Positions 27,401-52,227 of a stretch of 54,982 nucleotides of DNA are shown here, one piece after another (the first letter of the stretch is position 1; every line of letters starts with the position of its first letter). The notes beneath the pieces were generated by a model. It saw nothing but the letters and a program-made list of their open reading frames with translations. It was not told the origin of the DNA and ran no database searches. A program made the translations under genes and the position numbers. The stretch is from a virus, in the IMG/VR virus record IMGVR_UViG_3300028800_000115, positions 1-54,982 of that record, one strand, 5' to 3'.

Positions 27401-27777
27401 CCACTTCCGTCGACCAAGCCATCCAGAAGATCGGGGCGGCGCTTGCCGCGCTCGAAACCGATATCGTCGGGTTCGTGAAAGACACTGTCGAGCCTGCCGT
27501 TAAGGCCGAATTCGCCATTCTTGGACCGCAGGTTCTTGGTCTCGGCGAAACCGTGCTCGCGACCGTGTGGACCGCGGCTCAGACCTATCTCGAAACGGGC
27601 GGCCCCTCCACCCCAGGCGCGTCGGCATCTTTCGTGTCGTCGGTCGTGTCGCAGTTGCCGGCTGATCTGCAGGCGCTCGAGCATCTTGTCATGGCGGCGT
27701 TTGCCGGCGCCGTGCAGAGCATTCAGAGCAAGCCTCCTGCGGCTGCCGATAACGGAACGAGCGAAGCCGCAAGCTGA
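27397..27777 (+). CDS. Phage protein of unknown function, lysis cluster
   Basis: The 126-residue product is helical and acidic, with no signal peptide and no confident membrane span. The segment LALETDIVGFVKDTVEPAVK is amphipathic, followed by a longer helix and a Ser/Ala-rich tail. Both ends overlap neighbours (ATGA with the holin candidate; A of the spanin ATG). Its place between holin and spanin genes suggests a lysis or late accessory role. I do not recognise a family. Confidence 0.5.
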   Translation: MTTSVDQAIQKIGAALAALETDIVGFVKDTVEPAVKAEFAILGPQVLGLGETVLATVWTAAQTYLETGGPSTPGASASFVSSVVSQLPADLQALEHLVMAAFAGAVQSIQSKPPAAADNGTSEAAS

Positions 27778-27983
27778 TGTGGTGGCTCTCGGCCGCCGGC
27801 GCCGCGCTCAAGGCCGTTGCGGCCTTCTTTGGCTGGGTCTCAAAGGAACAGGACATCCAGAGCGGCGTCGACAAGCAGAAGGCGGCCGATCAAGCATCGA
27901 CAATCGCAACGCTCGACCGCGAAAATCGGGCGACAGCGAAAACGGAGGACACGGATGCGAAGCTTCGCGACGGGACTTTTTAG
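27777..27983 (+). CDS. Rz-like inner-membrane spanin
   Basis: The 68-residue product has an N-terminal membrane segment (WWLSAAGAALKAVAAFFGWV) and a short charged coiled-coil tail (SGVDKQKAADQASTIATLD). A lipoprotein gene starts inside its 3' end in another frame. Overlapping Rz/Rz1 pairs of this kind encode the inner and outer membrane spanins that fuse the envelope membranes at lysis. It is shorter than lambda Rz. Confidence 0.65.
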   Translation: MWWLSAAGAALKAVAAFFGWVSKEQDIQSGVDKQKAADQASTIATLDRENRATAKTEDTDAKLRDGTF

Positions 27984-28185
27984 CGTCACGGCTCTCGCCG
28001 CGCTCGGCGCCTGCACATCCCCACAGCCCGCGTCGGTGATTTGCCCGGTTCCGGTCGCCTATACGAAGTCGCAGGAGACGCAGGCCGCAGACGAGCGCGC
28101 GGCATTGCCGGCGAAGTCGATCTTGCGCACGTTTCTCGACGACTATGGCAAGGAGCGCGATAAACTCCGAGCCTGCCGCGGCTGA
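27955..28185 (+). CDS. Rz1-like outer-membrane spanin lipoprotein
   Basis: The start is ATG 27955 after a GGAGGAC site. The 76-residue product has a lipoprotein signal: residues 1-19 are basic then hydrophobic (FATGLFSVTALAALGA), with a lipobox LGAC and lipidated C20. The rest (YTKSQETQAADERAALP) is helical. It starts within the Rz-like gene in a different frame, the classic overlapping spanin arrangement. It would anchor in the outer membrane and complex with the Rz-like protein. It is the last late gene before a terminator. Confidence 0.7.
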   Translation: MRSFATGLFSVTALAALGACTSPQPASVICPVPVAYTKSQETQAADERAALPAKSILRTFLDDYGKERDKLRACRG

Positions 28186-28203
28186 TGCGCCGAACGAAGA
28201 GAA

Positions 28204-28236
28204 GCCCCGCCTGGGAAACCAGTGCGGGGCCCTTTT
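28204..28236 (+). terminator. Intrinsic terminator after the late operon
   Basis: GCCCCGC-CTGG pairs with CCAG-(T)-GCGGGGC around a GAAA tetraloop, giving an 11-bp GC-rich stem with one bulged T, followed by CCTTTTAA. It ends the spanin operon and overlaps the TAA of the convergent minus-strand gene. The minus-strand side is followed by TTCTCTTCG, so it may stop both operons, more weakly for the minus one. Confidence 0.8.
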
Positions 28237-29092
28237 AATGTTGGCGGTGCTTCGAGTTTGCGTGCTGGTCAACGTCCCATTTGCTCGCAAAGCGGCGCTC
28301 GCAATATAGGCAGGCAAAATTCTTGGCGCGCGGCGTTAAGTCTCCCGACGAGTGCCCATGAGCCGCAGGTTTCCCTTCCCCCGGGTTTGCGGGCAATTTT
28401 GCCGTTACCACCAATCGGGTGGCGCGATCCTGGCGAATGTCTGCGGGCCAGAGGGGCTTTCTCGTCGGGAGTTCGTCGGCCTCTAAATCCTCGCCTTCGC
28501 TTTCGTCATAAGGCTCGGAGTTGTCGGCAATTACATCGTAGAGCGGGCGCGCATCTTCGCCGCCAATCGGCGCGTCGAGCGATAGAAGCCCGTATTTGAT
28601 CGGGTGCATCTTCAAGACGTTGCGAAGATACGGCGTAACGGACGCGGCCAGCTTGTCGCGCTCAATCTCTCCCGAGAGAAGAGCAACCATCATGTCCTGA
28701 CAAATATCGGCGCGTATCCATTCGGGCAACCCACGCGGGACTAGGCTGTTGATTAGCATAATGTCGGCGTGTTCATCGCGCGGGCGAATGATGTATGGGT
28801 AGGCCACAGCGAACGATTTTGCTTTCGGCACAATCACGCCGCGCAAAGCTACTCGCCATGACGGCGGCATCTTCAATCGCATGTCGTGTGCGCGCTGCGC
28901 CACTGTGCGGGCCTCGCGCCCAAGAACATCGGCGCTTTTCTCAAGATCAACACCGGACGCAGCTAGCACACGCACGTTGTATTCTTCAACGCCAGTCCAA
29001 TGAAGCCCCTTGTACTGCACAGCGCCAATGTAGCGCGGCTGTAGAGCAGCGGCCTCGGCCTTTGTCAAAATATATACGCTGCTATCGGCCAT
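28235..29092 (-). CDS. Sigma-factor-like regulator with C-terminal C2H2 zinc finger
   Basis: The 285-residue product shows three parts. Residues 30-75 look like a helix-turn-helix (VDLEKSADVLGREARTVAQR). Residues of about 120-190 resemble sigma region 2 and its linker: EWIRADICQDMMVALLSGEI, then YLRNVLKMHPIKYGLLSLD, then an acidic spacer. Residues 260-283 are a classic zinc finger, CLYCERRF, 12 residues to H, then H, and a histidine-rich end. It is the last gene of the minus operon from the 31.4 kb promoter. The sigma resemblance is my reading of the pattern; it might switch transcription between operons. Confidence 0.5.
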   Translation of the reverse strand: MADSSVYILTKAEAAALQPRYIGAVQYKGLHWTGVEEYNVRVLAASGVDLEKSADVLGREARTVAQRAHDMRLKMPPSWRVALRGVIVPKAKSFAVAYPYIIRPRDEHADIMLINSLVPRGLPEWIRADICQDMMVALLSGEIERDKLAASVTPYLRNVLKMHPIKYGLLSLDAPIGGEDARPLYDVIADNSEPYDESEGEDLEADELPTRKPLWPADIRQDRATRLVVTAKLPANPGEGKPAAHGHSSGDLTPRAKNFACLYCERRFASKWDVDQHANSKHRQH

Positions 29093-29107
29093 GTGGCCCT
29101 TCCTGTG

Positions 29108-29506
29108 TTAGCCGCGCGCGGCGATATAGCGGTCGATGGCGTCGGCAACATCGCGCGGGGTTACGTTCCTCGGGTCCTTGCCGTAATTCTCGTTAGCCGA
29201 AGTTCTGGACGCCGAAAAGAGCCGGTAAGAATCATCTTGCGAAAGCCCGAGCATCGCGCCGAACACTACGGTTCCGAACATTGGATTAACGCACGCGACT
29301 GCCTCGACCTCGGGCCATACCGCGCAGCCCACGCCGATGGCGCATCCCACAGTGCCGCATTCATTTCGGTGGAAAGCCTCTCGAAAATTCCACACATGCG
29401 ACGGAGGCATCTGCCGCCGCAACAACCACGACAGCCCCTCAAGGCTTGGCTTGCTCAGATCGGGCTTCGTCTCGGCTGGCGTGTATGTCGTTTGGTCTAA
29501 TGGCAT
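29108..29506 (-). CDS. Conserved-looking phage protein, unknown function
   Basis: Start ATG 29506, behind an AGGAAGGGCC cassette; the frame is open further up but noncoding. The 132-residue product has a Cys-rich middle (NECGTVGCAIGVGCAVW), FGAMLGLSQDDSYRLF and an ending TPRDVADAIDRYIAARG. The CGTxGCAIG and LGLSxxxxxxLF pattern is like a recurrent family of phage proteins without known function. No membrane segment. Confidence 0.5.
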   Translation of the reverse strand: MPLDQTTYTPAETKPDLSKPSLEGLSWLLRRQMPPSHVWNFREAFHRNECGTVGCAIGVGCAVWPEVEAVACVNPMFGTVVFGAMLGLSQDDSYRLFSASRTSANENYGKDPRNVTPRDVADAIDRYIAARG

Positions 29507-29525
29507 GTGAGAGGCCCTTCCTGTG

Positions 29526-29810
29526 TCAGCGTGAGAGCGCGGCGTTGGCGCGAGAGGCCACATCGCGGAGTGTTTCGCGCAGCCGCTCGGTTTCGGATTC
29601 CATCTCGCCATTCAACAGCGCGACAAGACGATGCGCGAAGGTCTTTTGCTCTTCGGTCATGTCTTGAAGATCAGGCGCGGGCAACAAGCCGTAGCCACAG
29701 TCGAGGATCGCGCGCCGATCTGGACCGTAAATATATCGCCCATTCGTCGTGTAGCTCTTATCACGGGCGGCGAGCGTTGCGCCTTCTGGTGCTTTCAGAT
29801 GCGGGTTCAT
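29526..29810 (-). CDS. Small hypothetical phage protein
   Basis: The 94-residue product starts MNPHLKAPEGATLAARDKS and ends in a helical stretch (ESETERLRETLRDVASRA). RRAILDCGYGLLPAPDLQD is a central feature. It has cassettes on both sides (29507 and 29811). No family recognised. Confidence 0.45.
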   Translation of the reverse strand: MNPHLKAPEGATLAARDKSYTTNGRYIYGPDRRAILDCGYGLLPAPDLQDMTEEQKTFAHRLVALLNGEMESETERLRETLRDVASRANAALSR

Positions 29811-29828
29811 TGAGAGGCCCTTCCTGTG

Positions 29829-30143
29829 TCAGTGAGTGCTGGCGAGACGGATGCAAGTTTCGATCCCGTCGCGGAGTTTTATAAGACCTTCGCGGCGAGA
29901 CTGCGCCGGGTGTTCTTGGATCGTCTTTCCTATAACGCCGGAGATTTGCTTTGCCTCCGTCAACGTGAAAGCGTGATGCTCGCCGTCGATGCTGATACAA
30001 ACGCCTTTATCGTCCCCAGACACGGCCTCGCCAAGGCGCATTTCTATGTCGGCTGTCGGAGGCGCGGTTCGGTATGCGGATAGAAAATCGAGGACGCGGG
30101 TGAGCGGGCTTCCGCTGGTCGTAACTGTGAATTCGTCACTCAT
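29829..30143 (-). CDS. Small hypothetical phage protein
   Basis: The 104-residue product is mixed alpha/beta, with a beta-type part VCISIDGEHHAFTLTEAKQ and a helical tail (LIKLRDGIETCIRLAST). ATG 30143 follows a variant cassette (GGAAGGGCC). No signal or membrane segment, no recognised family. Confidence 0.45.
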   Translation of the reverse strand: MSDEFTVTTSGSPLTRVLDFLSAYRTAPPTADIEMRLGEAVSGDDKGVCISIDGEHHAFTLTEAKQISGVIGKTIQEHPAQSRREGLIKLRDGIETCIRLASTH

Positions 30144-30153
30144 GCGGCCCTTC

Positions 30154-30363
30154 CTATCTGATCCCCAAGCCGAACCGCTTGGCTAAATCTTTCTGCAATT
30201 CGATGTTGTTCATCACCGCCGCAAGACGCTCACCCTTCTGCGGGCTAGACGGCTCCTTGGCGACAGAATCGAAGTGACGGATGTTCGCTTCCAACACCTC
30301 GATCAAATCCTTGAGCGCCTTCTTGTAGTGCCGCGCCTTCTTTGCATCTTCGCTCAATGGCAC
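30154..30363 (-). CDS. Small helical hypothetical protein
   Basis: GTG 30363 is preferred over the long upstream open frame because it directly follows a TAAGGGCC cassette. The 69-residue product is helical and basic: KKARHYKKALKDLIEVLEAN, then IELQKDLAKRFGLGIR. No family recognised. It lies in the cassette-joined operon. Confidence 0.45.
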   Translation of the reverse strand: MPLSEDAKKARHYKKALKDLIEVLEANIRHFDSVAKEPSSPQKGERLAAVMNNIELQKDLAKRFGLGIR

Positions 30364-30374
30364 CTGAGAGGCCC

Positions 30375-30557
30375 TTATTGGTTCAAGTGTGCGCGAATTT
30401 TTCGGCCCATCTCGGCCGAGAGAAGATAACCACCATTGCCAGCATAGACGGCGGGCGTCTTGTCGAGTTTTGCTTTTAGAAATTTGCGGCACTTCGCTGC
30501 GACTGGCATCGCGTCGAATGCCTCCGCGCATAGCAAGAGAAGTTCTTTGTCGGTCAT
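30375..30557 (-). CDS. Small hypothetical protein
   Basis: ATG 30557 follows a GAAGGGGCC cassette variant; the longer frame upstream overlaps the neighbouring gene. The 60-residue product is MTDKELLLLCAEAFDAMPV then basic and aromatic residues (VYAGNGGYLLSAEMGRK). No family recognised. Confidence 0.45.
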   Translation of the reverse strand: MTDKELLLLCAEAFDAMPVAAKCRKFLKAKLDKTPAVYAGNGGYLLSAEMGRKIRAHLNQ

Positions 30558-30570
30558 CTGCGTGGCCCCT

Positions 30571-30966
30571 TCAGGTTTGTGCGTCGGACGCTGCGGTCGG
30601 GGTATCCGGCGCAGCACCATCTTGGCTTTCGTCCTCGTGGATCATCTCATCGTCCAAGGCAGAGAGAACCAGCAATTTCGCCACGCGCTTGTTTGCCGCG
30701 ATCAGGTAAGCCTCGATCTGCATGGCGGTATGAAACACCATGCTCATATCCAGCGGCATCATGTTGCGCCCCTCAAGCTTGTATTGCTGATAGAGCGTGC
30801 CGTCTTGAATGGTTGCGATGTCGTGATACTTCATCGCCATATTGAGCGCGATGGCGGCGACGCCGATGCAAGGGCCGATCTGGGCGTTATGCACTTCTTC
30901 CGGCATTCCTTCCAAAGCATCCGCCTTGTTGAACGTCATGCTTTTTGGTTGGTCGGATTGTTCCAT
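30571..30966 (-). CDS. Hypothetical phage protein
   Basis: The 131-residue product starts MEQSDQPKSMTFNKADALE, has a Met-rich helical middle (IALNMAMKYHDIATIQDG, MMPLDMSMVFHTAMQIE) and an acidic tail. A full cassette (30967-30990) precedes its start. No membrane span, no recognised family. Confidence 0.45.
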   Translation of the reverse strand: MEQSDQPKSMTFNKADALEGMPEEVHNAQIGPCIGVAAIALNMAMKYHDIATIQDGTLYQQYKLEGRNMMPLDMSMVFHTAMQIEAYLIAANKRVAKLLVLSALDDEMIHEDESQDGAAPDTPTAASDAQT

Positions 30967-30987
30967 GGTTCAGCGGCCCTTCCTGTG

Positions 30988-31158
30988 TCAGCCGCGTTCA
31001 ATTACGCGGCGCGCGATGTTGATCCACGTTGACCTGATCTCGGCCTGAGTTTCTCCGTCGATTCCTTCCCAGACATTTTGCAATCCGCCCCTGTCCGAGA
31101 GATCGAGCAAGATACAGTCAACGATGTATTCGGCCTGTAGTCCTACAGCGGTTGGCAT
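30988..31158 (-). CDS. Small hypothetical protein
   Basis: ATG 31158 follows a TAAGGGGCC cassette variant; the longer frame upstream is rejected as overlapping. The 56-residue product contains AEYIVDCILLDLSDRGGL and ends NIARRVIERG. No recognised family. Confidence 0.45.
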   Translation of the reverse strand: MPTAVGLQAEYIVDCILLDLSDRGGLQNVWEGIDGETQAEIRSTWINIARRVIERG

Positions 31159-31168
31159 GAGAGGCCCC

Positions 31169-31372
31169 TTACGGATGTGTCGGGGTGAGAGAAACGCGGT
31201 AGACGCCCGCGCCAAGATCGGCCAGCACGAAATCATACAGCCGACCGCGAGCAAGGATGTTGCCGCCGGTCTCTAGCAGCATCTCGCGCGCATCTTCCTG
31301 GCTCATGGTCGTATTGGCCCACGGCCCTGCGGAAGCGAGGAAGTTCAATTGTCGGCTGGTTTCCTTGTTCAT
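31169..31372 (-). CDS. First gene of the minus operon, small hypothetical protein
   Basis: The 67-residue product starts MNKETSRQLNFLASAGP and contains MSQEDAREMLLETGG. Its ATG is 6 bases from a -10-like element, so the transcript would be leaderless and the usual ribosome site is absent. No family recognised. It heads the nine-gene operon running to 28235. Confidence 0.5.
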   Translation of the reverse strand: MNKETSRQLNFLASAGPWANTTMSQEDAREMLLETGGNILARGRLYDFVLADLGAGVYRVSLTPTHP

Positions 31373-31378
31373 GCTCTA

Positions 31379-31406
31379 CAAATAAACCGCTCACGCAGGA
31401 AGTCAA
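31379..31406 (-). promoter_or_regulatory. Minus-strand promoter of the 31.4 kb divergent region (leaderless)
   Basis: On the minus strand, TTGACT (31406-31401) is followed after 16 bases by TATTTG (31384-31379). The A of the start codon at 31372 is the seventh base after the -10, the expected transcription start. The arm GTCAATA (31402-31408) inverts with TATTGAC in the opposing promoter. Confidence 0.6.
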
Positions 31407-31435
31407 TAGAAACTTTCCTATTAGGTTCAATCGTA

Positions 31436-31463
31436 TTGACAGCCGTTTTAACGGGCGTATAGT
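31436..31463 (+). promoter_or_regulatory. Plus-strand promoter of the 31.4 kb divergent region (leaderless)
   Basis: TTGACA (31436-31441), a 16-base spacer and TATAGT (31458-31463) are followed by 6 bases and ATG 31470, so the transcript should start at or next to the start codon. The geometry is the same as on the other strand. A GAAACTTTC palindrome (31410-31418) between the promoters could bind a regulator. Confidence 0.7.
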
Positions 31464-31469
31464 TCGGCC

Positions 31470-32076: not shown

Positions 32077-32864
32077 CGCGGGTGCTTGCATGGTTCTCTT
32101 GCGGCGACGCCAGCGCAGCGGCGGCATACTTGGCCGCGTGTAAATACGGCGACAATAGCGCTATCGGTTTCCAGGTTTGCTACTGCGACACCTTCGCCTA
32201 TGAGCATCCCGACAATCGCCGGTTCTTTGGCGACGTTGAACGCTGGCTTGGCTTCGACATAAAGATTCTGTGGTCGAAAGAGTACCGGGATATTTATGAC
32301 GTGTTCGAGCGGACGCGCTGGCTGGTCGGAATCGGCGGCGCACGCTGCACGACAGAACTGAAAAAGAACGTCCGCACGGCATATCAGCGCGTCGGGGATA
32401 TTCACGTCTTTGGCTTCACGGCTGACGAGCAACATCGCGTTGACCGCTTCCGCCGAGAGAACCCGGACTTGCTTGCCGAGTTTCCACTGATCGACGCCAA
32501 GATGACGAAGCGTGATTGTCACGCGATGGTGCGCGCTGCCGGGATCGAACTGCCGATGATGTACCGGCTCGGGTACAAAAATAATAACTGCATCGGGTGC
32601 GTCAAAGGACAGTCGGGCTACTGGAACAAAATCCGGCGAGACTTCCCCGAGGCGTTCGACAAGATGGCGAAGATGGAGCGCACCTTGAACGCGGCAATCT
32701 GCAAGCGCGAAGGCGTCAAAGACGGTAAGCGGTGGCGTGAGCGCGTGTTCCTTGACGAGCTTCCGCCAGATGCGGGACGGTACGAAGCCGAGCCTGACAT
32801 TGAGTGCGGCGTCTTGTGCATCCACGAGCCGACGCCAAATACGTTATCAATCACCCAGGATTAA
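32073..32864 (+). CDS. PAPS reductase-family ATP-pyrophosphatase-like protein
   Basis: The 263-residue product begins with a PP-loop-type motif FSCGDASAAAAYLA (S9 to S14), as in PAPS reductase and DndC-type enzymes. Cysteine-rich parts follow: GARCTTELKK, NNCIGCVKGQSGYW with a C-x2-C, and CGVLC at the end. This pattern is common in phage proteins of this family of unknown substrate, which may activate or thiolate a nucleic-acid target. ATG overlaps the upstream stop. Its C-terminal codons and stop form the first plus-strand junction cassette. Confidence 0.65.
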   Translation: MTRVLAWFSCGDASAAAAYLAACKYGDNSAIGFQVCYCDTFAYEHPDNRRFFGDVERWLGFDIKILWSKEYRDIYDVFERTRWLVGIGGARCTTELKKNVRTAYQRVGDIHVFGFTADEQHRVDRFRRENPDLLAEFPLIDAKMTKRDCHAMVRAAGIELPMMYRLGYKNNNCIGCVKGQSGYWNKIRRDFPEAFDKMAKMERTLNAAICKREGVKDGKRWRERVFLDELPPDAGRYEAEPDIECGVLCIHEPTPNTLSITQD

Positions 32865-32874
32865 GGGAGCGGAA

Positions 32875-33501
32875 GTGGCGAGGCGCGGATTTAACGCTGT
32901 GGATATGATCGTATCGCAGGGGGCGACCGTGAGCGCGGCGGCGTTGGCCGCTGGCGTGAGTCGTCAGAGAGTTTATCAAATCCTAAAGAGGATTGGCGTT
33001 AAAGCAGGCATGGCGATAACTAACGACGCGCTCGCGCGCTTTGCCGCGTATAAAGATATTCTGCCGCTACCGACTGGTGGGTTCACTATTGCTGGACACG
33101 GAGAAGCTACGCGCGCCGGAATGATGGCAGCAAAAGCGCGCGGTATCCACATTGGGCGGCCCAAAAAGTTTACAGCTTCGGTGAGTCGTCTTGTCAGGTG
33201 GAGACTAAGGCGCGGCGATCAGGTCGGTGATATTTCGCGTGGGCGGGAGTTTCAAAATCCCTCATCTATGATAATTTCTCGCGCCGATATGTTGACGGTA
33301 AATACATCGTCAAACGCAAACTTTGAAGGGAGCGCGGTCAGTGTCGGACCAGAAGCTAGAAGAAATCCGCAGGATATTGTCCAACATGGCCGAGGCCCAA
33401 CGTGTTCATGTCGCGGGCTGCATCTGCCCGCCAACTTCCGAACAGACTTGCGGCAATCAACTTTGCCCGCGCCGTCCAATTCAGTCGTCAATCGTGATTA
33501 A
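32875..33501 (+). CDS. HTH/AT-hook regulator-like protein, probably frameshifted near 33240
   Basis: The start is GTG 32875 behind a cassette (AGGGAGCGGAAG). The product has an N-terminal HTH (AALAAGVSRQRVYQILKR), then ATRAGMMAAKARGIHIGRPKKF, the hinge sequence of serine recombinases and an AT-hook-like GRPKK, then SRLVRWRLRRGDQVGDISR. As read, it continues as improbable sequence to 33501. The adjacent frame gives WAGVSKSLIYDNFSRR, then YVDGKYIVKRKL and stops at 33326 exactly at a cassette. A single missing base near 33240 would join the parts. I take it as one 150-residue HTH protein broken by a frameshift; only the nuclease part of a recombinase is absent. Confidence 0.5.
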   Translation: MARRGFNAVDMIVSQGATVSAAALAAGVSRQRVYQILKRIGVKAGMAITNDALARFAAYKDILPLPTGGFTIAGHGEATRAGMMAAKARGIHIGRPKKFTASVSRLVRWRLRRGDQVGDISRGREFQNPSSMIISRADMLTVNTSSNANFEGSAVSVGPEARRNPQDIVQHGRGPTCSCRGLHLPANFRTDLRQSTLPAPSNSVVNRD

Positions 33502-33505
33502 GTAA
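33341..33505 (+). CDS. Small cysteine-rich hypothetical protein
   Basis: GTG 33341 follows GAAGGGAGCGCGGTCA, the cassette after the corrected stop of the previous gene. The 54-residue product is helical then Cys-rich (CICPPTSEQTCGNQLCP), perhaps a metal site with four cysteines. It overlaps the nominal end of the previous open frame, supporting the frameshift reading. No family recognised. Confidence 0.45.
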   Translation: MSDQKLEEIRRILSNMAEAQRVHVAGCICPPTSEQTCGNQLCPRRPIQSSIVIK

Positions 33506-33517
33506 AGGAGCGGAAGC

Positions 33518-33706
33518 ATGGCATTAATTTTAGCGGGCGTAATTTTCATAGCGACGCTGGCGTTCTGCGCGCTGATGGCTTTCGCTGCGGGAATGAGCGA
33601 CAGCCAGAGCACATCATCTAATAACGTGGTGCTGACTTTCGTTACTGGGACGATCTTAGCGGTCCTGGTGGGGGCATCCCACTGGATGCCGCACGTTGGC
33701 TGGTAG
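33518..33706 (+). CDS. Small two-span membrane protein
   Basis: The 62-residue product has two hydrophobic segments, MALILAGVIFIATLAFCALM and VVLTFVTGTILAVLVGASHW. ATG 33518 follows AAAGGAGCGGAAGC, a full cassette. No known family; size and topology could fit a membrane accessory protein. Confidence 0.5.
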   Translation: MALILAGVIFIATLAFCALMAFAAGMSDSQSTSSNNVVLTFVTGTILAVLVGASHWMPHVGW

Positions 33707-33715
33707 GAGTCCAAG

Positions 33716-33910
33716 ATGCCATATGATCCGTCGCCTATCGAACTACTCGCGGGAGAGATTGCAAGCGACGTATTCCCGTGGGTGCCTGAGCAGACGCTCG
33801 ATAAGCTGACGGCGATCAGGGCGGCAATCGAGCGGCGTCTCAAATGCGCTGAAGGTCGCGACTATATCGCGCGCATCGCCGCAATGTCATCGTCAACCCC
33901 AACCGAATAA
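33716..33910 (+). CDS. Small hypothetical protein
   Basis: The 64-residue product contains SPIELLAGEIASDVFPWV and RAAIERRLKCAEGRDYIA and ends in SSSTPTE at a cassette. A GGAGTCC site precedes ATG 33716. No recognised family. Confidence 0.45.
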   Translation: MPYDPSPIELLAGEIASDVFPWVPEQTLDKLTAIRAAIERRLKCAEGRDYIARIAAMSSSTPTE

Positions 33911-33920
33911 CGGAGCCGGA

Positions 33921-34169
33921 ATGGTCGATCTGTCAATTCCGGCCTTCCAGGGTGACGCTGACGCGCTCGCGAAACTGACGCTCCAACAGCGCGAAGCGTT
34001 TGAGGCCTGGATGAAAGAACTCGACGCCGAACACGCGAAGGCCGGTTATCCATACGGCGAGCAAAGCCTATGGAAGGCGACAGGCGTTGAATGCTGGCTT
34101 GGCTATTTCAATGACGGCTATGAGCCGGATTACGCCATGTCCGAAGATATGTCTCAGGCAAGCGACTAA
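33921..34169 (+). CDS. Small hypothetical phage protein
   Basis: The 82-residue product starts MVDLSIPAFQGDADALAKL and contains QREAFEAWMKELDAEHAK, then YFNDGYEPDYAMSEDMS. It follows an ACGGAGCCGGA cassette site. Acidic, soluble, no recognised family. Confidence 0.45.
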   Translation: MVDLSIPAFQGDADALAKLTLQQREAFEAWMKELDAEHAKAGYPYGEQSLWKATGVECWLGYFNDGYEPDYAMSEDMSQASD

Positions 34170-34179
34170 CGGAAATCCC

Positions 34180-34344
34180 ATGCGCGAAGGTTGGCTTCGT
34201 CATTCATTGGAACACGCCCGCATCTACACCGAGGAAGTGGAGAAGGCGCGCGTGAGGACGAACCGGCGCATGAAGCGATACGAGAAAGAGCATCCGCTCG
34301 GGCCGGAAGAACCCGAAACCGATCATCAACACCTAGATTTTTAA
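34180..34344 (+). CDS. Small charged hypothetical protein
   Basis: Start ATG 34180 follows ACGGAAATCCC. The 54-residue product is highly charged and helical (IYTEEVEKARVRTNRRMKR, then KEHPLGPEEPETDH), with its end running into a cassette. The longer upstream frame is rejected. No recognised family. Confidence 0.4.
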   Translation: MREGWLRHSLEHARIYTEEVEKARVRTNRRMKRYEKEHPLGPEEPETDHQHLDF

Positions 34345-34353
34345 GGAGCCGGT

Positions 34354-34581
34354 ATGCGCGCACCATCTAGACTATGGCTATTACCGATACTTGCGGCACA
34401 GGCATGGGTGATGCTGGCGACAGAAGCATCGCATTGGAGGCGCGACCCTCACTGGAACGCCTCTCAGCGGGCATTTGATAGCGGCGATTACGCGACCTTC
34501 ACGCGAGAGGCGGCAGAGTGGAAAGCCGCCCCACGCTTTTGCCCGCTGATCGTAATTTGTTCACCATCAACCACAGAATAA
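34354..34581 (+). CDS. Small protein with N-terminal hydrophobic segment
   Basis: The 75-residue product has a hydrophobic N-terminus (LWLLPILAAQAWVMLATEA), perhaps a membrane anchor or signal, then a charged region (FTREAAEWKAAPRF) and a hydrophobic end. AAGGAGCCGGT precedes ATG 34354. No recognised family. Confidence 0.45.
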   Translation: MRAPSRLWLLPILAAQAWVMLATEASHWRRDPHWNASQRAFDSGDYATFTREAAEWKAAPRFCPLIVICSPSTTE

Positions 34582-34593
34582 CGGAGCGGCACC

Positions 34594-34767
34594 GTGCCCA
34601 ACATGGCTTTAGCGTTCTTCGGTGGCTTCGGCGCTGCTGTCGGAATTATCATCATGGTCCTTTTGACCGGGCAGACATTCGGTCAGCGGTGTGATCGTAT
34701 GTTCCCGTCCGATCCGCTCGCCGCCGATCGGTGCGTCCATCAACTCAATCACGGCATCGAGCCGTAG
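34594..34767 (+). CDS. Small membrane protein (57 residues)
   Basis: Starting at GTG 34594 after a CGGAGCGGCACC cassette site, this short frame encodes MPNMALAFFGGFGAAVGII, continuing IIMVLLTGQTFGQ, a single membrane span, then CDRMFPSDPLAADRCVHQ and a stop (TAG 34765) that lies in the next cassette. The fit of both ends to cassettes supports it despite its size. No family recognised. Confidence 0.5.
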   Translation: MPNMALAFFGGFGAAVGIIIMVLLTGQTFGQRCDRMFPSDPLAADRCVHQLNHGIEP

Positions 34768-34779
34768 AAGGGAGCCGTC

Positions 34780-35010
34780 GTGGGTGCTATCGACAACATG
34801 GTGGACATGCACGGCAATCTGCCGAAGTTTCTGCCAGGCGAGAGCGTTATCTGCTACGGCAAACATCGCGGCGTCGTGGTTAAACAGCGCCAGTCATACG
34901 ATGGCCCGGGCATCGATTGGTTCTGGGGGATGGTCGAAGTTAAAGACGAAGATGGCGAGATTCACGTCGTCCATAATTGGCAATGTCGTCACGAAACAGA
35001 ACGGAACTAA
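34780..35010 (+). CDS. Small hypothetical protein
   Basis: GTG 34780 follows AAGGGAGCCGTC. The 76-residue product is beta-like (SVICYGKHRGVVVKQRQS, then WFWGMVEVKDEDGEIHVVH) and looks like a compact barrel. No family recognised. A TAAGGAGC cassette leads to the next gene. Confidence 0.5.
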   Translation: MGAIDNMVDMHGNLPKFLPGESVICYGKHRGVVVKQRQSYDGPGIDWFWGMVEVKDEDGEIHVVHNWQCRHETERN

Positions 35011-35017
35011 GGAGCAG

Positions 35018-35752
35018 ATGCGCGTCCTCGATCTATTCAGCGGCATAGGCGGTTTCTCGCTTGGCCTAGAGCGCGCGGGGATGTGGACTGTGGCGTTCTG
35101 TGAGATTGATCCGTTCTGCCGTAAAGTCTTGGCGAAGCATTGGCCCGAGGTACCCTGTTACGATGACATCCGAACCCTCACCGCTGAGCGGCTCACCGCA
35201 GATGGAATTACTGCCGATACAATCTGCGGCGGATTCCCCTGCCAGGACATCAGCACAGCAGGGAACGGCGCAGGGATCGACGGTGAGCAATCGGGTTTAT
35301 GGCGCGAATATGCCCGACTTATTGGCGAGATACGACCGCAGCACGTCATTGTGGAGAACGTCGCAGCATTGCTTGGGCGGGGGCTTGGACGAGTTCTCGG
35401 AGACTTGGCCGCGCTCGGGTACGATGCGGAGTGGCATTGCATTCCAGCTTCCGCCGTTGGTCTACCTCATGAGCGAGATCGCGTGTGGATTATTGCCAAC
35501 GCCGAGAAAGGACCGGGCTTATCAAGCATACTCATCGCCGGGCTACGCACCTTCCCTCACCCAATATCTAACTGGCAAGATTGGGCGGGAGAACAATGGC
35601 CTGAAACCGAATCCAGAATTTGTAGAGTTGATGATGGGATTCCCGATCGGTCACACCGAATTGAAACCCTCGGAAACGCCGTCGTCCCGCAAATCCCCGA
35701 GATCATCGGGCGAGCGATAATGCAAATACATCATCAATCCTCGAATACATAG
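35018..35752 (+). CDS. DNA (cytosine-5) methyltransferase
   Basis: Start ATG 35018 after AAGGAGCAG. The 244-residue product has C5-methyltransferase motifs: DLFSGIGGFSLGLERAG (I), catalytic GGFPCQDIS with C75 (IV), VIVENVAALLGRG with E113-N114-V115 (VI), PHERDRVWIIA (VIII-like) and LGNAVVPQIPEIIGRAI (X). The target-recognition region is very short. It adds methyl groups to cytosine, probably to protect phage DNA or as the substrate for later base modification. A second protein-like frame overlaps it (see the separate entry). Confidence 0.85.
   Translation: MRVLDLFSGIGGFSLGLERAGMWTVAFCEIDPFCRKVLAKHWPEVPCYDDIRTLTAERLTADGITADTICGGFPCQDISTAGNGAGIDGEQSGLWREYARLIGEIRPQHVIVENVAALLGRGLGRVLGDLAALGYDAEWHCIPASAVGLPHERDRVWIIANAEKGPGLSSILIAGLRTFPHPISNWQDWAGEQWPETESRICRVDDGIPDRSHRIETLGNAVVPQIPEIIGRAIMQIHHQSSNT
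35100..35720 (+). CDS. Overlapping alternative-frame ORF inside the C5-methyltransferase gene
   Basis: In the frame one base off from the methyltransferase, an open frame of up to 206 residues runs almost the whole gene. A better start may be ATG 35163, with a GAGG upstream. It contains SPARTSAQQGTAQGS, DLLARYDRSTSLWRTSQ, FSETWPRSGTMRSGIAFQL, GLLPTPRKDRAYQ and NPEFVELMMGFPIGHTELK. These look like a recurrent phage-protein family I recall near or overlapping such methyltransferases. It could be a true overprinted gene, or merely a frame shadow of conserved methyltransferase codons. I cannot decide without selection analysis. Confidence 0.35.
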   Translation: MRLIRSAVKSWRSIGPRYPVTMTSEPSPLSGSPQMELLPIQSAADSPARTSAQQGTAQGSTVSNRVYGANMPDLLARYDRSTSLWRTSQHCLGGGLDEFSETWPRSGTMRSGIAFQLPPLVYLMSEIACGLLPTPRKDRAYQAYSSPGYAPSLTQYLTGKIGRENNGLKPNPEFVELMMGFPIGHTELKPSETPSSRKSPRSSGER

Positions 35753-35761
35753 GGAGCGGAA

Positions 35762-35836
35762 GTGGCGAATTGGTTCTATCTCGCTGGCTCGGTCTGCTTC
35801 GTGCTCGGCACGATTATCAACATGGTGGCACGTTGA
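35762..35836 (+). CDS. 24-residue membrane microprotein
   Basis: GTG 35762 follows a full AGGGAGCGGAAG cassette. The frame encodes MANWFYLAGSVCFVLGTII (first residue read as Met), continuing NMVAR and stop, a single hydrophobic span. Its TGA overlaps the TTG start of the next gene, so it may couple its translation. Its size makes it uncertain, but the cassette supports translation. Confidence 0.5.
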   Translation: MANWFYLAGSVCFVLGTIINMVAR

Positions 35837-36654
35837 GCGTTCGCATCCTCCAAGGTAACTGCCTCGACGTGCTGCGGACGCTGCCCGATGAATCCGTGCA
35901 TTGCATCGTCACGTCGCCCCCGTACTTCTGGCTGCGAGACTACGGGTGCGAGGGCCAGATCGGGCATGAGCCGGACGTGGCAAGTTTTATCGCCATCATT
36001 GGCGACGTGTTTGATGGGGCACGGCGCGTCCTGCGGGCCGATGGTGTTCTGTGGCTCAACCTCGGCGATAGCTACTACAGCGGCAACGGTCAGCCGATGG
36101 GCCGCGACCCGAAGTCGTCGTCGCGCAATTTCTCCCGCGGCAAACTCCGCCCTCTCGATGTTGGTGGGTGGGACATTCCAAAGAAAAGCTTGCTCGGCAT
36201 TCCTTGGCTCTGCGCTCTTGAATTGCAGCGCCGCGGCTGGACATTGCGATCGGATATCATCTGGTGCCGCTCGACCGCGCTGGCCGAGCCGTCCGTTACT
36301 GATAGACCTGGGCGGCAGCACGAATATCTGTTCCTACTCTCAAAGTCTCGCCGGTACTTTTTCAACAAGGCCGGGAACCCAGAGGCAAGCGTCTGGCATA
36401 TTGCCCACGAGCGAAACGTCAAAGGTCACAACGCCGCTTTCCCCGAAGAACTGGTCGAGCGTTGTATCGCCACTGGCTGCCCGCCGGCGGGAACCGTACT
36501 CGATCCATTCGGCGGATCGGGAACGTCTGGCCTTGTCGCAGATCGAATGGGACGCGACGCCATCCTGATCGAACTAAACCCGGAATATGCCGCGATGGCC
36601 GAGCGCCGGATTCGCGGCGACGCGCCAATGTTATCATCAATCACCACAGATTAA
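35833..36654 (+). CDS. DNA methyltransferase, N4-cytosine/N6-adenine type
   Basis: The start is TTG 35833, overlapping the stop of the microprotein gene; the upstream frame overlaps it wrongly. The 273-residue product has motif IV SPPY at residues 28-31 (TSPPYFWLRDYG), DILW-type helix WTLRSDIIWCRS and motif I DPFGGSGTSGLVADRMG (from D224). The SPPY variant points to N4-cytosine, but N6-adenine enzymes cannot be excluded. Order IV before I is the beta class. No restriction partner is seen, so it may be protective or regulatory. Confidence 0.8.
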   Translation: MSVRILQGNCLDVLRTLPDESVHCIVTSPPYFWLRDYGCEGQIGHEPDVASFIAIIGDVFDGARRVLRADGVLWLNLGDSYYSGNGQPMGRDPKSSSRNFSRGKLRPLDVGGWDIPKKSLLGIPWLCALELQRRGWTLRSDIIWCRSTALAEPSVTDRPGRQHEYLFLLSKSRRYFFNKAGNPEASVWHIAHERNVKGHNAAFPEELVERCIATGCPPAGTVLDPFGGSGTSGLVADRMGRDAILIELNPEYAAMAERRIRGDAPMLSSITTD

Positions 36655-36665
36655 CGGAGCGCCTC

Positions 36666-37046
36666 GTGGATAGCACGCCGATTCCGAAAGAAGTCTTGGA
36701 GCGAGCGCGGCGCGTTCTGTGTCGTCGCATGGGCGCGTGCGTTGTTTCTGCCATGGCGGATACCGATACGGACTTTGCCACGATTGCGGCGCGGCTCAGT
36801 ACGTCAGAGCGTGTGGTGTCGGGCTGGCTCGATACGCTCATTAGCGGGAGCGCAATATCGCTCGACAAGATTTCCGACTTGCTCTTTGCGATGGGCGCAG
36901 AGATGGAATTTTCTATCATCCCCGCAAACCCATCACGAAACCCGAAAACGAATAGGGAGCGCCCGTGCCGTACACCTACAGAGAACACCGCGAATTACTC
37001 CAAGACGTTGACCGGCGATTCCTTGAGAACGAGCCGGACCAAGTGA
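36666..37046 (+). CDS. HTH-like hypothetical protein overlapping next gene
   Basis: GTG 36666 follows ACGGAGCGCCTC. The 126-residue product has helical EVLERARRVLCRRMGACVV and an HTH-like stretch FATIAARLSTSERVVSGWLD, then SLDKISDLLFAMGAEMEFS. The annotated frame overlaps the next gene by 82 bases, while the cassette stop TAG at 36953 lies in another frame. A 1-base indel near the 3' end may have lengthened it. XRE-like DNA binding is possible. Confidence 0.5.
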   Translation: MDSTPIPKEVLERARRVLCRRMGACVVSAMADTDTDFATIAARLSTSERVVSGWLDTLISGSAISLDKISDLLFAMGAEMEFSIIPANPSRNPKTNRERPCRTPTENTANYSKTLTGDSLRTSRTK

Positions 37047-37240
37047 AGCCTGGAACGTGCGGCGCGTGCGTGTCATTCGACCCTCCGCAGAATGGACTGC
37101 TGTGGCGCAAGGTCACGCATCCGGTGGCGCTTGACGCTCGGATCGAAGGCTGGTGCAAAAACGGCGTAGCGTGTCTCGGGGCAGTTCTGCGAACGGCCCG
37201 CGACAGCACTTGCAAATACTTCGCCAAACGAGAGATTTGA
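36965..37240 (+). CDS. Small cysteine-containing hypothetical protein
   Basis: GTG 36965 follows AGGGAGCGCCC. The 91-residue product starts MPYTYREHRELLQDVDRRF and contains GTCGACVSFDPPQNG, WCKNGVACLGAVL and STCKYFAKREI, five cysteines that might bind metal. It is the last gene of the plus operon; its stop is followed by a cassette copy with no gene after it. Confidence 0.5.
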   Translation: MPYTYREHRELLQDVDRRFLENEPDQVKPGTCGACVSFDPPQNGLLWRKVTHPVALDARIEGWCKNGVACLGAVLRTARDSTCKYFAKREI

Positions 37241-37781: not shown

Positions 37782-39548
37782 TCATCGTGGGAAGAGCCAG
37801 TCGCTTGCCTTGACGTGCCCCGGCGATGCCGTGGCGGCGAGGCCGAACTTCGCGATCTCAGCGAATCGCACACCAAGGGTGCTGGCTGTACGCGAATATC
37901 CGGTTTCGTCGGCGAGACGATCGCGTGAGACTTCATTCGGATAGGCACGATAAATGACATCGAAGACCTCCGCTTCTTTGCCGCTCAGGAGGCCGCGTGC
38001 CATGAGAAACAGGTCATTTTTGGTCGATGCCGTCGGCGAGTTTGCCGCCTCGCGCCCGGCGGCCGTCAGGGCGACGCAGCCCGGCGAGGTTTCGACAAGA
38101 CCGAGCTTTAGCGCCTCGGCGACGCGAACGCCGAAAGTCGACGCTTTGGGGCTATAGCCCGCGACGACGCAAGCTTGATCTCGCGGCACTGGATCGGTCC
38201 CGATGTGGTTCCAGAAGGCGATTGCGTCGATTGTCCGCTGAAGTGCCGGGGAAACGCCACCGGCGCTGGCGCGAGCGGGGCGAGGCCGGGCTGTCCGGGC
38301 GGTTGGCGCGGGCGGCGCCTGGTTGGCCTGGCTGCTGTTTCTGGCGCTATGCGCTGGTGCTAATGGCCGCGCATGGCTTGCCGGCGCCGGGCGGGCGGCC
38401 GCGATGGCGCGAAGAGCCGCGCCGAGCCCGTCTAGGGCCCCTTGGATGCCTGGAATGAGCCCTAGCCCCGTCTCCGTGGCTTGACGGATGCCGTCGGCGA
38501 AGCCGGACTCGAAGCCAGCCAGCTCGCCTTCCGCCCGTACCGCTTCCAGGGTTTCCGGGTCCGGCTCCGTCACGACACTTTTTGCCGCCTCATTTGATGC
38601 AGATTTTTGTGACATCTCGCGCCGCAGCGTTTCGATCTGCTTTTTCAGTTCGGCCGGGTCGTTGGCCTTCGCCACGGCGACCGCATCGCCGATGATCGCC
38701 GTAAGTTGGTTTTTGTCGACCGGTGCCGTTTTGACATCGCCGAAGTCGTCATCGCTGTCCGGCGTCCGGCTGTTGTCGAATGTCTTGATTCGCGGAAACT
38801 GCACGCGCTCGAAAATCTGCGCTTCGCCCGACACGATCCATGCCGTGCCCGTCGGCATCGATGACAGCTCCGCCGTGACGGCCTTGGCGGTTTCCTTCGG
38901 CGCGTTCGCCAGCAGCCATTTTTTGATCGGCTCCTGGTCAGCCGGTGCCGTCAGCCGGTGCTCGATGAGCGTATCGCAGCTTCCAAGCAGCGTATTGTGG
39001 AGAGCCTGGACACGCTGCGTCGCGACGATCAATCGAAAGCCCTTTGACCGGCCGCCGGTGGCGAGTTTCTTCGCCCAATGGATAGCCATGTTCTCGGCGC
39101 CGAAACCGGAGCGTTCCTTCGGCGCGAATTCATGGGCTTCCTCGATCACGAGATACAGCACGCCGCGCGCCGACTTGAACAGCGCCTCGGCGAAGTCGAC
39201 AAAGAATCGCTGGATCCCACCGGCTTCGAAGTCCGCCATATCGATGATCGACAGCGGCAATTTCCCGGTGCCGACGATCTCGCCGATGGCTTTGCCGCTC
39301 GATGAATGCAGCGGCACATGCCCGCGCGGGCCGCCGAGAATTGTGAACGGCAGACCGGCGTGCTTGCCGTCGGCGCTGGACGTGATGCCCCACCAGTCCG
39401 ATTTGATTGGGTCAAGGATGCAGACGCGGAAATCGGAACCGGCGATCTGTTCCACCATCAGCTTCGCGGTTGACGTTTTGCCGGAACCAGTTTTTCCGAT
39501 CACGGCGACGTGCTGCGTGAGGATGGCTGGCGGGATGGCGAGTTTCAT
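37782..39548 (-). CDS. HerA/VirB4-like ATPase with tandem winged-helix C-terminus
   Basis: Start ATG 39548 overlaps the TGA of the upstream gene; the frame is open further but noncoding there. The 588-residue product has Walker A GKTGSGKT at residues 18-25, Walker B-type VLYLVIEEAHEFAP, an arginine-containing SRTPDSDDDFGD region and a Pro/Ala linker (about 400-430). The C-terminus holds two related units, GYSPKASTFGVRVAEALKLG and GYSRTASTLGVRFAEIAKFG, which look like tandem winged-helix domains. HerA-type ATPases move DNA in recombination or resection; here a role with RecT-type recombination is likely but unproven. Confidence 0.65.
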   Translation of the reverse strand: MKLAIPPAILTQHVAVIGKTGSGKTSTAKLMVEQIAGSDFRVCILDPIKSDWWGITSSADGKHAGLPFTILGGPRGHVPLHSSSGKAIGEIVGTGKLPLSIIDMADFEAGGIQRFFVDFAEALFKSARGVLYLVIEEAHEFAPKERSGFGAENMAIHWAKKLATGGRSKGFRLIVATQRVQALHNTLLGSCDTLIEHRLTAPADQEPIKKWLLANAPKETAKAVTAELSSMPTGTAWIVSGEAQIFERVQFPRIKTFDNSRTPDSDDDFGDVKTAPVDKNQLTAIIGDAVAVAKANDPAELKKQIETLRREMSQKSASNEAAKSVVTEPDPETLEAVRAEGELAGFESGFADGIRQATETGLGLIPGIQGALDGLGAALRAIAAARPAPASHARPLAPAHSARNSSQANQAPPAPTARTARPRPARASAGGVSPALQRTIDAIAFWNHIGTDPVPRDQACVVAGYSPKASTFGVRVAEALKLGLVETSPGCVALTAAGREAANSPTASTKNDLFLMARGLLSGKEAEVFDVIYRAYPNEVSRDRLADETGYSRTASTLGVRFAEIAKFGLAATASPGHVKASDWLFPR

Positions 39549-41221: not shown

Positions 41222-42562
41222 CTACCCCATGCGCCTATCGTCGAGAATCGCGTTGACCTGATCACGGTCGCCGCTGCGATGCTCGGCGATGAAATCGTAT
41301 TCGCGCTTCCATTGCGCGAGGAATGGCTGGATCTCATCGGGCCGGATGATGCGCAGGACCGCCGTGAACCAGCGCATGAACGTCGGCCAGTCACCTTTCC
41401 CGGTGACGGGCGACTTCGGTGCCGGCGCGATTTCGGTGGGCTTCTGGGTGGCGGCGGCCGGGGCATCGTTCGCCGGCTGTTCGCCTTCGGCCGCCGCGTC
41501 TTGCCGCCGCTTCGCGTCTTCGGCCGCGCGCTCTTCCGCAGCCTTGCGTTCGGTCTCTTCGGTCTCGCGAACGGCCGCATCTTTTTTACGCGCTTCGGCT
41601 TCCTTCGCGGCGAGGTCTTTCGACTTCGCCTCGCATGCCGCGATCACGGCGTCGGCCAGATCGGCATAACCGCGGTCGCGGAGCTGGCCCGACAGCGTGT
41701 TCGATTCCCACATATCATTGAGCGTTTTCGTGTCGCGGCATCCGTCGATCAGGGCCATGAACGCCTCGGTTGCCTCTTTGGCGACCGTCAGATTGTTCGT
41801 GATCACGCCTTCGGTATCCTGGAATTCGAAGGGTTCGGCGGTGTCTTCGCGATCGACAACGACTCCGCGTTCTGGCCGCTCTTCGATCGCAAGCGGCATC
41901 GCCGGGCGGTCATCTTCCTCATCGCGGGCCAGAAGCCGGTCCAGGTCGGCCGAATCGGGAGCGGCTTTCGAGCATCGGCGCAACACGGTTTTGCGGGCCA
42001 TTTCTTCCCACCACGATACCCACGGCCCGTTGCTTTTCGCGCGGCTGACGGCGCGGACCTTTTCGATCTCCGCCTTGCTCATAAATTCGCGCAAAATCTC
42101 GCCATTCGTGAGTTTGATTATGGCGTAGGCGCCGATGGCATCGCCGCGATCGATCAGTGCCGGCTTGTGCTCGATATGCGGATTATCGCCGAGTTCGTAA
42201 TCGAAGTGGTCCTTCGAAAACACGACATAAGCATCGGCGGATTTCACTTCGCCGGTGTTGCGCATGCGTTTCCTGATCCCGTGTATCATCGGCATGTATT
42301 GGACTTTGTCGCCGAAGATCACGAGTGCAGCATCGCGACCGTCGGGGAACAGGCCATCTTGTGCTGCCTTGATGCAGGACGTGAACAGTGATCTACGGTC
42401 GGCCTTGACCAGATCGGGGTTCGAGTTGATTGCCGTCACGACCACGCGGCGGAATTTCTCCGGCGTGATGTGTGATGGTAGCGCGGCGGCGAATTGCGGT
42501 TCGTATTGCGCGAGTTCGATTTCGAAATTCGACGGGCGATGTTCGGCGACAGCGGTTGCCAT
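41222..42562 (-). CDS. RecT-family single-strand annealing protein
   Basis: The 446-residue product has a RecT core (about residues 30-215): VVVTAINSNPDLVKADRRS, LFTSCIKAAQDGLFPDGRDA, QYMPMIHGIRKRMRNTGEV, FSKAEIEKVRAVSRAKSNG in the variant seen and EEMARKTVLRRCSKAAP. Residues 320-390 are a charged coiled-coil with Pro/Ala, and the end (WPTFMRWFTAVLRIIRPDE) may bind a partner. RecT anneals complementary strands in phage recombination. The usual exonuclease is not obvious in the window. Confidence 0.85.
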   Translation of the reverse strand: MATAVAEHRPSNFEIELAQYEPQFAAALPSHITPEKFRRVVVTAINSNPDLVKADRRSLFTSCIKAAQDGLFPDGRDAALVIFGDKVQYMPMIHGIRKRMRNTGEVKSADAYVVFSKDHFDYELGDNPHIEHKPALIDRGDAIGAYAIIKLTNGEILREFMSKAEIEKVRAVSRAKSNGPWVSWWEEMARKTVLRRCSKAAPDSADLDRLLARDEEDDRPAMPLAIEERPERGVVVDREDTAEPFEFQDTEGVITNNLTVAKEATEAFMALIDGCRDTKTLNDMWESNTLSGQLRDRGYADLADAVIAACEAKSKDLAAKEAEARKKDAAVRETEETERKAAEERAAEDAKRRQDAAAEGEQPANDAPAAATQKPTEIAPAPKSPVTGKGDWPTFMRWFTAVLRIIRPDEIQPFLAQWKREYDFIAEHRSGDRDQVNAILDDRRMG

Positions 42563-47041: not shown

Positions 47042-47670
47042 AACCCTCGCAAGAATTCCTCGACGACGTCGCGCGGCGCTGGAACGACAAGCAATCCATG
47101 TCCGCGATCGCCGACGCCAAGGGCGTTTCGAAAGGCGTCATCGCCGGCACGATCCACCGCATGCGCGAAGCCGGCGCAAAACTCGATATTCGCGGCGTTG
47201 TTCGATTATCGAAGGCGAACGCCGCCCGGAAGGCGAAAAAGGCCGCGTCTTCGCGCAAGACGAAGCGCGCCGAGACCGACGCGATTGCCGCGGCGATCGA
47301 TGCGCAGCCGGCGCCGCGAGAGAAACCCGTGCCGGTTTCGGCCGCCAGATCGGTGCCGTTGGCGCGCGTTCGCATCAAACAGCGCGCGCTCGAGCCTGGC
47401 GTCGTTCCTGTGGTGCCGCGCCCGGCGCTGGCCGCGCCCGTGGCGATGCCGGTGCGAGTCCCGGTGGTTGCGCTGGCCCCTGGCGGCTGCCACTTCATCG
47501 ACGGCCATCCCGTTGAAGAGATGCGCGCCGGCAAGGATCCATTCTGCGGCAAGAAGCGCGCGCCGGGCTCGCCTTATTGCGAGCGACACCATGCCATCTG
47601 CTATCGGCCGGCGAAAGAGCGTCCGGTTGCCGAGTTCGCGACGGTCTACATTCCGAAAGCGCACCACTGA
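47038..47670 (+). CDS. GcrA-like cell-cycle regulator
   Basis: ATG 47038 overlaps the previous stop. The 210-residue product has an N-terminal HTH like GcrA: FLDDVARRWNDKQSMSAIA then GVSKGVIAGTIHRMREAG. A basic linker follows and the C-terminus carries a CHFIDGHP and FCGKKRAPGSPYCERHH metal-like motif. GcrA works with sigma70 at promoters methylated by CcrM in Alphaproteobacteria. A phage copy could steer host or phage promoters. Confidence 0.65.
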   Translation: MKPSQEFLDDVARRWNDKQSMSAIADAKGVSKGVIAGTIHRMREAGAKLDIRGVVRLSKANAARKAKKAASSRKTKRAETDAIAAAIDAQPAPREKPVPVSAARSVPLARVRIKQRALEPGVVPVVPRPALAAPVAMPVRVPVVALAPGGCHFIDGHPVEEMRAGKDPFCGKKRAPGSPYCERHHAICYRPAKERPVAEFATVYIPKAHH

Positions 47671-51991: not shown

Positions 51992-52227
51992 GCATCCCGG
52001 AGATCACCGCAGAAGATATCGCCGAAAATATTCTAGCTCCGGAAATTGAATCCGCGCTCTATGCGTTGATCGTGAATTCCGGCCCTATCCGATACGACGA
52101 TGCTGGCCTCGCGAGAATCCACAATGCCGCGCGCAAGGTTTTTGACGGGATGAGCCTTGGCGACCTAGATGGGCTGCGTGCCCGCGCCGACGATGAAATC
52201 AAGAAATTATTTGGCGAAGACCGATGA
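51988..52227 (+). CDS. Small hypothetical protein
   Basis: The 79-residue product starts MSIPEITAEDIAENILAPE and contains RIHNAARKVFDGMSLGDL. Acidic and helical. ATG overlaps the previous stop. No recognised family. Confidence 0.45.
   Translation: MSIPEITAEDIAENILAPEIESALYALIVNSGPIRYDDAGLARIHNAARKVFDGMSLGDLDGLRARADDEIKKLFGEDR

Follow-up and report, generated by a model that had tools for sequence, protein, structure and literature searches.

An operon-specific, stop-containing start-associated cassette at the gene junctions of a contractile-tailed phage

The start-associated sequences (SAS) of the Cluster K mycobacteriophages are 13-bp elements situated at the ribosome-binding site (RBS) ahead of many small, non-structural genes; they are asymmetric, occur in one orientation, are conserved beyond the Shine-Dalgarno (SD) sequence and sometimes hold the stop codon of the upstream gene, and Pope et al. 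(2011) leave it possible that a factor binds them (PMC3203893). Microbacterium phages of Cluster EF have an unrelated set of SAS (PMC7302621). The phages in which SAS have so far been described are actinobacterial; the function of SAS is unsettled and is still called ill-defined (PMC11373665). The subject of this analysis is an element of comparable anatomy: a junction cassette repeated in a minus-strand operon of IMGVR_UViG_3300028800_000115, a 54,982-base virus record of a tailed phage (the whole stretch is referred to below as the window). The window encodes a tail sheath (8618-10240), a DnaB-like helicase (47577-49148) and a RecT-family protein (41222-42562); its phage is contractile-tailed and unrelated to the actinobacterial phages that have SAS.

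The cassette shares with the Cluster K SAS (GGGATAGGAGCCC; PMC3203893) its location at the RBS, its asymmetry and coding orientation, its association with unrelated small genes, its conservation past the SD and the inclusion, occasional in Cluster K, of an upstream stop codon. It differs in sequence--Cluster K membership is defined by GGGATAGGAGCCC with at most two changes, and the consensus of the window, TGACACAGGAAGGGCC, lies outside that range--and also in being limited to a single operon, with another cassette serving the operon on the opposite strand. With the Cluster EF SAS (GGGAAAGGACCCC; PMC7302621), a highly conserved 13-mer in those phages, it has in common the RBS location, complementarity to the anti-SD and a sequence of independent kind, the EF phages being an unrelated group. 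Every EF SAS is, however, tied to the companion element termed ESAS, while the minus-strand family has none: no ESAS-type 17-bp imperfect inverted repeat lies upstream of its cassettes, where identity before the stop codon is at random level and structure is not shared. Copies at the RBS, oriented asymmetry, conservation beyond the SD and unrelated genes in between are among the marks of an SAS, and these four are found here; judged by its anatomy, the minus-strand cassette is best filed as an SAS-type element with an operon-specific sequence of its own.

Position and anatomy of the minus-strand cassettes

The operon comprises nine small genes read on the minus strand from 31372 to 28235, and a cassette directly precedes the start codon at all eight of its internal junctions. 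These are listed below; ranks are among the 2,944 start codons of the window, scored as described further on.

29095..29110, minus strand: cassette before 28235-29092, TAACACAGGAAGGGCC then AC-ATG; one mismatch; TAA is the upstream stop
29507..29528, minus strand: cassette before 29108-29506, TGACACAGGAAGGGCC plus TCTCAC, then ATG; exact core; TGA is the upstream stop
29811..29831, minus strand: cassette before 29526-29810, TGACACAGGAAGGGCC plus TCTCA, then ATG; exact core; TGA is the upstream stop
30146..30161, minus strand: cassette before 29829-30143, TCAGATAGGAAGGGCC; three mismatches; stop TAG inside the core (TAGGAAGGGCC); rank 8 of 2944
30364..30385, minus strand: short-form cassette before 30154-30363 (GTG start), ACCAATAAGGGCC plus TCTCAG; the TAA that ends the upstream gene overlaps the SD; rank 9 of 2944 (16-nucleotide matrix)
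30564..30579, minus strand: short-form cassette before 30375-30557, CAAACCTGAAGGGGCC; the TGA that ends the upstream gene overlaps the SD; rank 11 of 2944
30975..30990, minus strand: cassette before 30571-30966, TGACACAGGAAGGGCC; exact core; TGA is the upstream stop
31159..31178, minus strand: most diverged short-form cassette, before 30988-31158, TAAGGGGCC plus TCTC; the TAA that ends the upstream gene overlaps the SD; rank 19-108, depending on matrix length

The 16-nucleotide (nt) core TGACACAGGAAGGGCC is exact at three of these sites (29513, 29816 and 30975); the copy at 29095 departs from it at one position and that at 30146 at three; the starts at 30363, 30557 and 31158 retain the 3' half alone (AAGGGCC/AAGGGGCC), followed in two of them by TCTC(A). 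A previous, sequence-only reading of this locus had assigned the core to all eight junctions. That observation is real and well above chance, and is partly confirmed: the 3' half and linker are indeed present eight times, and the count is overstated for the full core, which is present at only four or five. The first gene of the operon (start 31372) has no cassette, and no copy is found in the window away from the starts of the minus-strand operon.

The stop codon of the upstream gene lies inside the cassette or at its 5' edge at every junction (8/8), 10-21 nt before the next start. It does so in two ways: four long copies carry it at their 5' end, within TRA-CACAGGAAGGGCC, and in the four others the SD bases themselves form the stop (TAGGAAGGGCC, TAAGGGCC, TGAAGGGGCC, TAAGGGGCC). 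The AAGGG part ends 4-10 nt ahead of the start codon, and the spacing to the start varies from junction to junction. Numbering from the first G of GGCC, the bases invariant in all eight cassettes are A at -10, A at -3, G at -1, GGCC itself and C at +5; conservation of TRACAC and of GGCC-N-C exceeds what an SD needs. Similarity ends abruptly on both sides, identity just past the start codon and just before the stop codon being 0.26-0.27 against 0.263 for random columns. The cassette is asymmetric, is oriented with the gene and lacks dyad symmetry. A hairpin or an Rfam element was also considered as its identity and rejected: no conserved hairpin or shared RNA structure was found across the cassettes, and no Rfam family matches the minus-strand operon region.

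How far does this exceed chance? Shuffling gives an expectation of 0.30 matches to TGACACAGGAAGGGCC with at most three mismatches, and none of 100 shuffles reached the five seen. The only 12-mers with at least four occurrences on a strand are ACACAGGAAGGG, CACAGGAAGGGC and ACAGGAAGGGCC, and GGAAGGGCC is found on the minus strand only, confined to these junctions. Leave-one-out matrices, by which no site scores itself, place the held-out start at rank 2-11 of 2,944 for seven junctions when 16 nt long; the remaining start, at 31158, ranks 108 with the 16-nt matrix, 19 with a 9-nt and 20 with a 21-nt matrix. Outside the operon, no start codon of the window scores as high as these eight. Averaged over pairs, the longest word shared in the 28 nt upstream is 9.75 for the minus-strand junctions, against 4.56±0.21 when eight other genes are drawn at random, a difference of 25 standard deviations. 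When about 1,480 six-gene blocks of the window and the fetched viral contigs are scored in this way, the minus-strand operon stands first with 10.4; the 99th percentile of the first viral set is 7.2, and the positive control Anaya, a phage with known SAS, scores 6.5.

Translation, linkers and other readings

The cassette is probably a start-associated sequence in the literal sense: an enlarged, nearly invariant RBS that takes in the preceding gene's stop codon as well. The alphaproteobacterial-type 16S rRNA has the 3' tail …CCUCCUUUCU. The SD contained in the core, AGGAAGGG, can pair with this tail over eight contiguous positions, two of them G-U. A ribosome would terminate translation of the upstream gene at or just ahead of the SD (AGGAAGGG or AAGGGG). 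Translation would resume 10-21 nt downstream, with that subunit or with another close at hand, so that small, unrelated genes might form a string of coupled translation proceeding at much the same rate. The stop would be supplied by the 5' end of the cassette in its long form (TRA-CACAGGAAGGGCC) and by the SD bases themselves in its short form (TAAGGG, TGAAGGG, TAGGAAGGG). From the position of the cassettes, the geometry of their stops and their pairing we infer that termination-reinitiation coupling through an enlarged SD is the most likely function.

Several points weigh against this proposal. Selection for an SD alone leaves TRACAC, 8-13 nt upstream, and the GGCC-TCTCA side unexplained; the starts at 31158 and 30363 are weak members, the latter with a predicted pairing of only -3.9 kcal/mol (alphaproteobacterial-type tail); and the genomes searched include no close relative that carries this operon. 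The uniformity beyond the SD (TRACAC, CC-TCTCA) is most easily explained by copying of a linker between junctions or by a common constraint.

The first of these possibilities can be developed into an explanation of its own, to which we give somewhat less than an even chance: the cassettes may be mainly recombination linkers, short homologous boundaries at which a recombinase encoded by the phage could insert, remove or swap small genes as modules; an SD would be found within them because junctions are lost once they lack a start signal. Unrelated genes between identical linkers of 16-22 nt, and the sharp edges of identity, are what such a history might leave, and the RecT-family protein already mentioned makes recombination plausible. 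Precedents exist in the boundary sequences discussed for lambdoid phages (PMC3029335) and in the gain and loss of genes between short direct repeats at gene boundaries, published for the mobile small genes of Cluster O (PMC4351075), where likewise a short boundary sequence is shared and the genes between differ. In those cases, however, gene movement is documented by related genomes; for the window, no relative was found in which a junction is empty or swapped, so that exchange is here hypothetical, and at half of the junctions the shared stretch is no more than about 9 nt, which is short for homologous exchange. The sequence-only reading had spoken of an amplified element; this may be so, and the sharp edges do fit the copying of a short linker, but they would also fit common selection. 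Linker copying and the enlarged RBS are compatible, and the probabilities attached to them consequently overlap.

Less probable by a good deal, though conceivable by analogy, is that a regulator encoded by the phage, binding RNA or DNA, controls the whole operon through the cassettes as its operators, either as a translational repressor or in the manner of the asymmetric stoperators of Cluster A. The invariant bases outside the SD (A at -10; GGCC-N-C) would suit such a regulator, and a binding factor is just what Pope et al. left possible for SAS (PMC3203893). But dyad symmetry and conserved RNA structure are both missing, the spacing to the start is variable, and the divergent promoter region, like the rest of the window beyond the operon, is free of copies.

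Two further readings concern the opposite operon as well:

32838..36964, plus strand: operon whose junctions bear the second cassette type, roughly ATCATCAA-N-CACAGA-TAACGGAGCGG ahead of the start

Within-family sharing is 9.75 for the minus strand and 6.22 for the plus strand; between the families it is 4.72, against 4.57 for unrelated genes. (One plus-strand position, 35763, was taken at TGG, one base past GTG; this leaves the comparison unaffected.) The minus and plus cassettes are thus unrelated in sequence, one type to each divergent operon, as had been supposed when the locus was first read. As side observations on this family, the plus-strand cassette reaches back some 40 nt from the start codon and overlaps the preceding genes at their 3' ends; these genes consequently encode similar C-terminal peptides (SSSTPTE*, CSPSTTE*, SITQD*); and the gene at 36666-37046 runs through the next plus-strand cassette (a TAG near 36951 is out of frame) and overlaps 36965-37240, possibly through a frameshift or a sequence error.

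It had been proposed from these two unrelated families, one per operon, that the site types are tuned to different translation strengths or different forms of the ribosome. That now seems very improbable. Median predicted anti-SD duplex energies are -8.6 (minus), -7.5 (plus) and -6.4 kcal/mol (other genes) with the alphaproteobacterial-type tail, and -7.2, -8.0 and -6.1 kcal/mol, respectively, with the E. coli tail, either of which may not be that of the host; the ranges of the two families overlap widely and their order flips with the tail assumed. No consistent difference in pairing exists, and a difference in strength is accordingly unsupported, as is a preference for one form of the ribosome; moreover, private cassettes are found in other phages too, so that a difference in sequence needs no special ribosome. 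On shakier ground still, if only slightly, is the notion of two translation "addresses," in which each divergent operon would be read by a trans-acting phage factor of its own; if true, the phage could switch the translation of one whole operon while sparing the other.

That the cassettes are leftovers of gene duplication or ordinary SD convergence can hardly be credited: every cassette does include an SD-like stretch, but column shuffles that keep the SD composition give a shared word of only 4.71±0.19 against the 9.75 seen, and a duplication origin is rejected since the proteins encoded between copies are mutually non-homologous, not paralogues, and the flanks are at random identity, so that genes were not duplicated along with the linker. 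The genes between copies had rightly been called unrelated; taken together, the interpretation first put on the locus is partly supported.

The cassette in other genomes

Within the collections searched, the minus-strand cassette is private to this phage. The 16-mer occurs in six viral contigs, one copy in each and none of the six at a predicted gene start, and the longer pattern has no match in viral contigs. When 84,980 bacterial and archaeal genomes were scanned for ACACAGGAAGGGCC..ATG, 112 single-copy, chance-like stretches came up, 11 of them at a predicted start; among the matches listed, no stretch has a second copy. In the window itself the motif is far above chance level and is not spread over ordinary junctions; the sequence-only reading, which gave each operon a cassette type of its own, is supported in this. 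Relatives fetched by way of the tail sheath or the helicase do not have the cassette, and nearly all of them are missing the genes of the minus-strand operon; the closest tail-sheath relative is a 30-kb fragment with neither the cassette nor a homologue of the operon, and a search of bacterial genomes with the tail sheath gave no match. For the operon's own proteins, IMG/VR yielded two relatives of 30571-30966 and none of 28235-29092 or 29108-29506.

One contig with a 57% homologue of 30571-30966 (L216; IMGVR_UViG_3300021066_000068) offers an instructive parallel. It, too, has divergent small-gene operons (L216:19-6270), and nine of its plus-strand junctions share a stop-containing cassette, GTCAAAATAAGGCCCGAGCC-ATG or a variant, with a mean shared word of 7.3; a long variant reads TAGTCAAGGAAACCCCCGAGCC-ATG. 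The sequence differs from that of the window: cross sharing with the minus-strand cassette is 4.75, the null level, and the consensus sequences are identical at 11 of 16 positions (P about 0.025), which does not prove a relationship. Unlike the window, its opposite operon shares sequence only weakly: three starts have part of GTCAAATAAGGAGAGGCA, and the operon as a whole is near the null (5.1). Two further contigs have private start-associated repeats: CCGCGAAAGGAAACG in L017:5861-9103, with ACCGCGAAAGGAAACG at 4-5 of six genes, and ACAACCAGGAGGAT in L070:3494-5523, with ACAACCAGGAGGA at several genes.

The window, L216 and these two contigs suggest that phages repeatedly make a standard junction for a genome or an operon. 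The same kind of element is seen here in an unrelated, contractile-tailed phage, with a private sequence that is different for each divergent operon; the presence of two operon-specific cassettes within one genome is the mildly new aspect. What maintains the uniformity can now be put to the test, the candidates being selection on translation, copying from one junction to another and a binding factor shared by all of them.

Genes and signals around the operon

28235-29092, minus strand: last gene of the operon, 285 amino acids, without a family hit
29108-29506, 29526-29810, 29829-30143, 30154-30363, 30375-30557, 30571-30966, 30988-31158 and 31169-31372, minus strand: open reading frames, the other eight small genes
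31373..31469: intergenic region between the divergent operons, without a copy of the cassette
28203..28235: candidate terminator hairpin, GCCCCGC-CTGGGAAACCAG-TGCGGGGC then CCTTTT, read directly from the sequence

A family search with the eight genes within 29108-31372 gave two weak PHROG matches of unknown function and nothing else. The protein of 28235-29092 has one weak homologue in a phage contig (33-35% over about 70 amino acids); its C-terminus has what looks, by eye, like a zinc-finger motif, C-x2-C-x12-H-x4-H (CLYCERRFASKWDVDQHANSKH). The two operons had been described as reading from one divergent promoter, which is half borne out: the plus side has a good σ70-like site (TTGACA-16-TATAGT, 31436-31463, an 11/12 match), and none is reported for the minus side of the intergenic region. 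The candidate terminator sits between convergent plus-strand genes and the end of the minus-strand operon; the overlapping genes 27777-27983 and 27955-28185, which follow the structural region, resemble a spanin pair, the gene that ends at 28185 having a lipoprotein-like signal.

Further afield, a glucosyltransferase-like protein (52224-52991; phrog_842), a ParB-like/DNA methyltransferase-like protein (50893-51609) and methyltransferases at 35018 and 35770 suggest DNA modification. The HerA/DUF87 ATPase encoded at 37782-39548 has relatives at 44-67% in 25 viral contigs, several of them longer than 100 kb.

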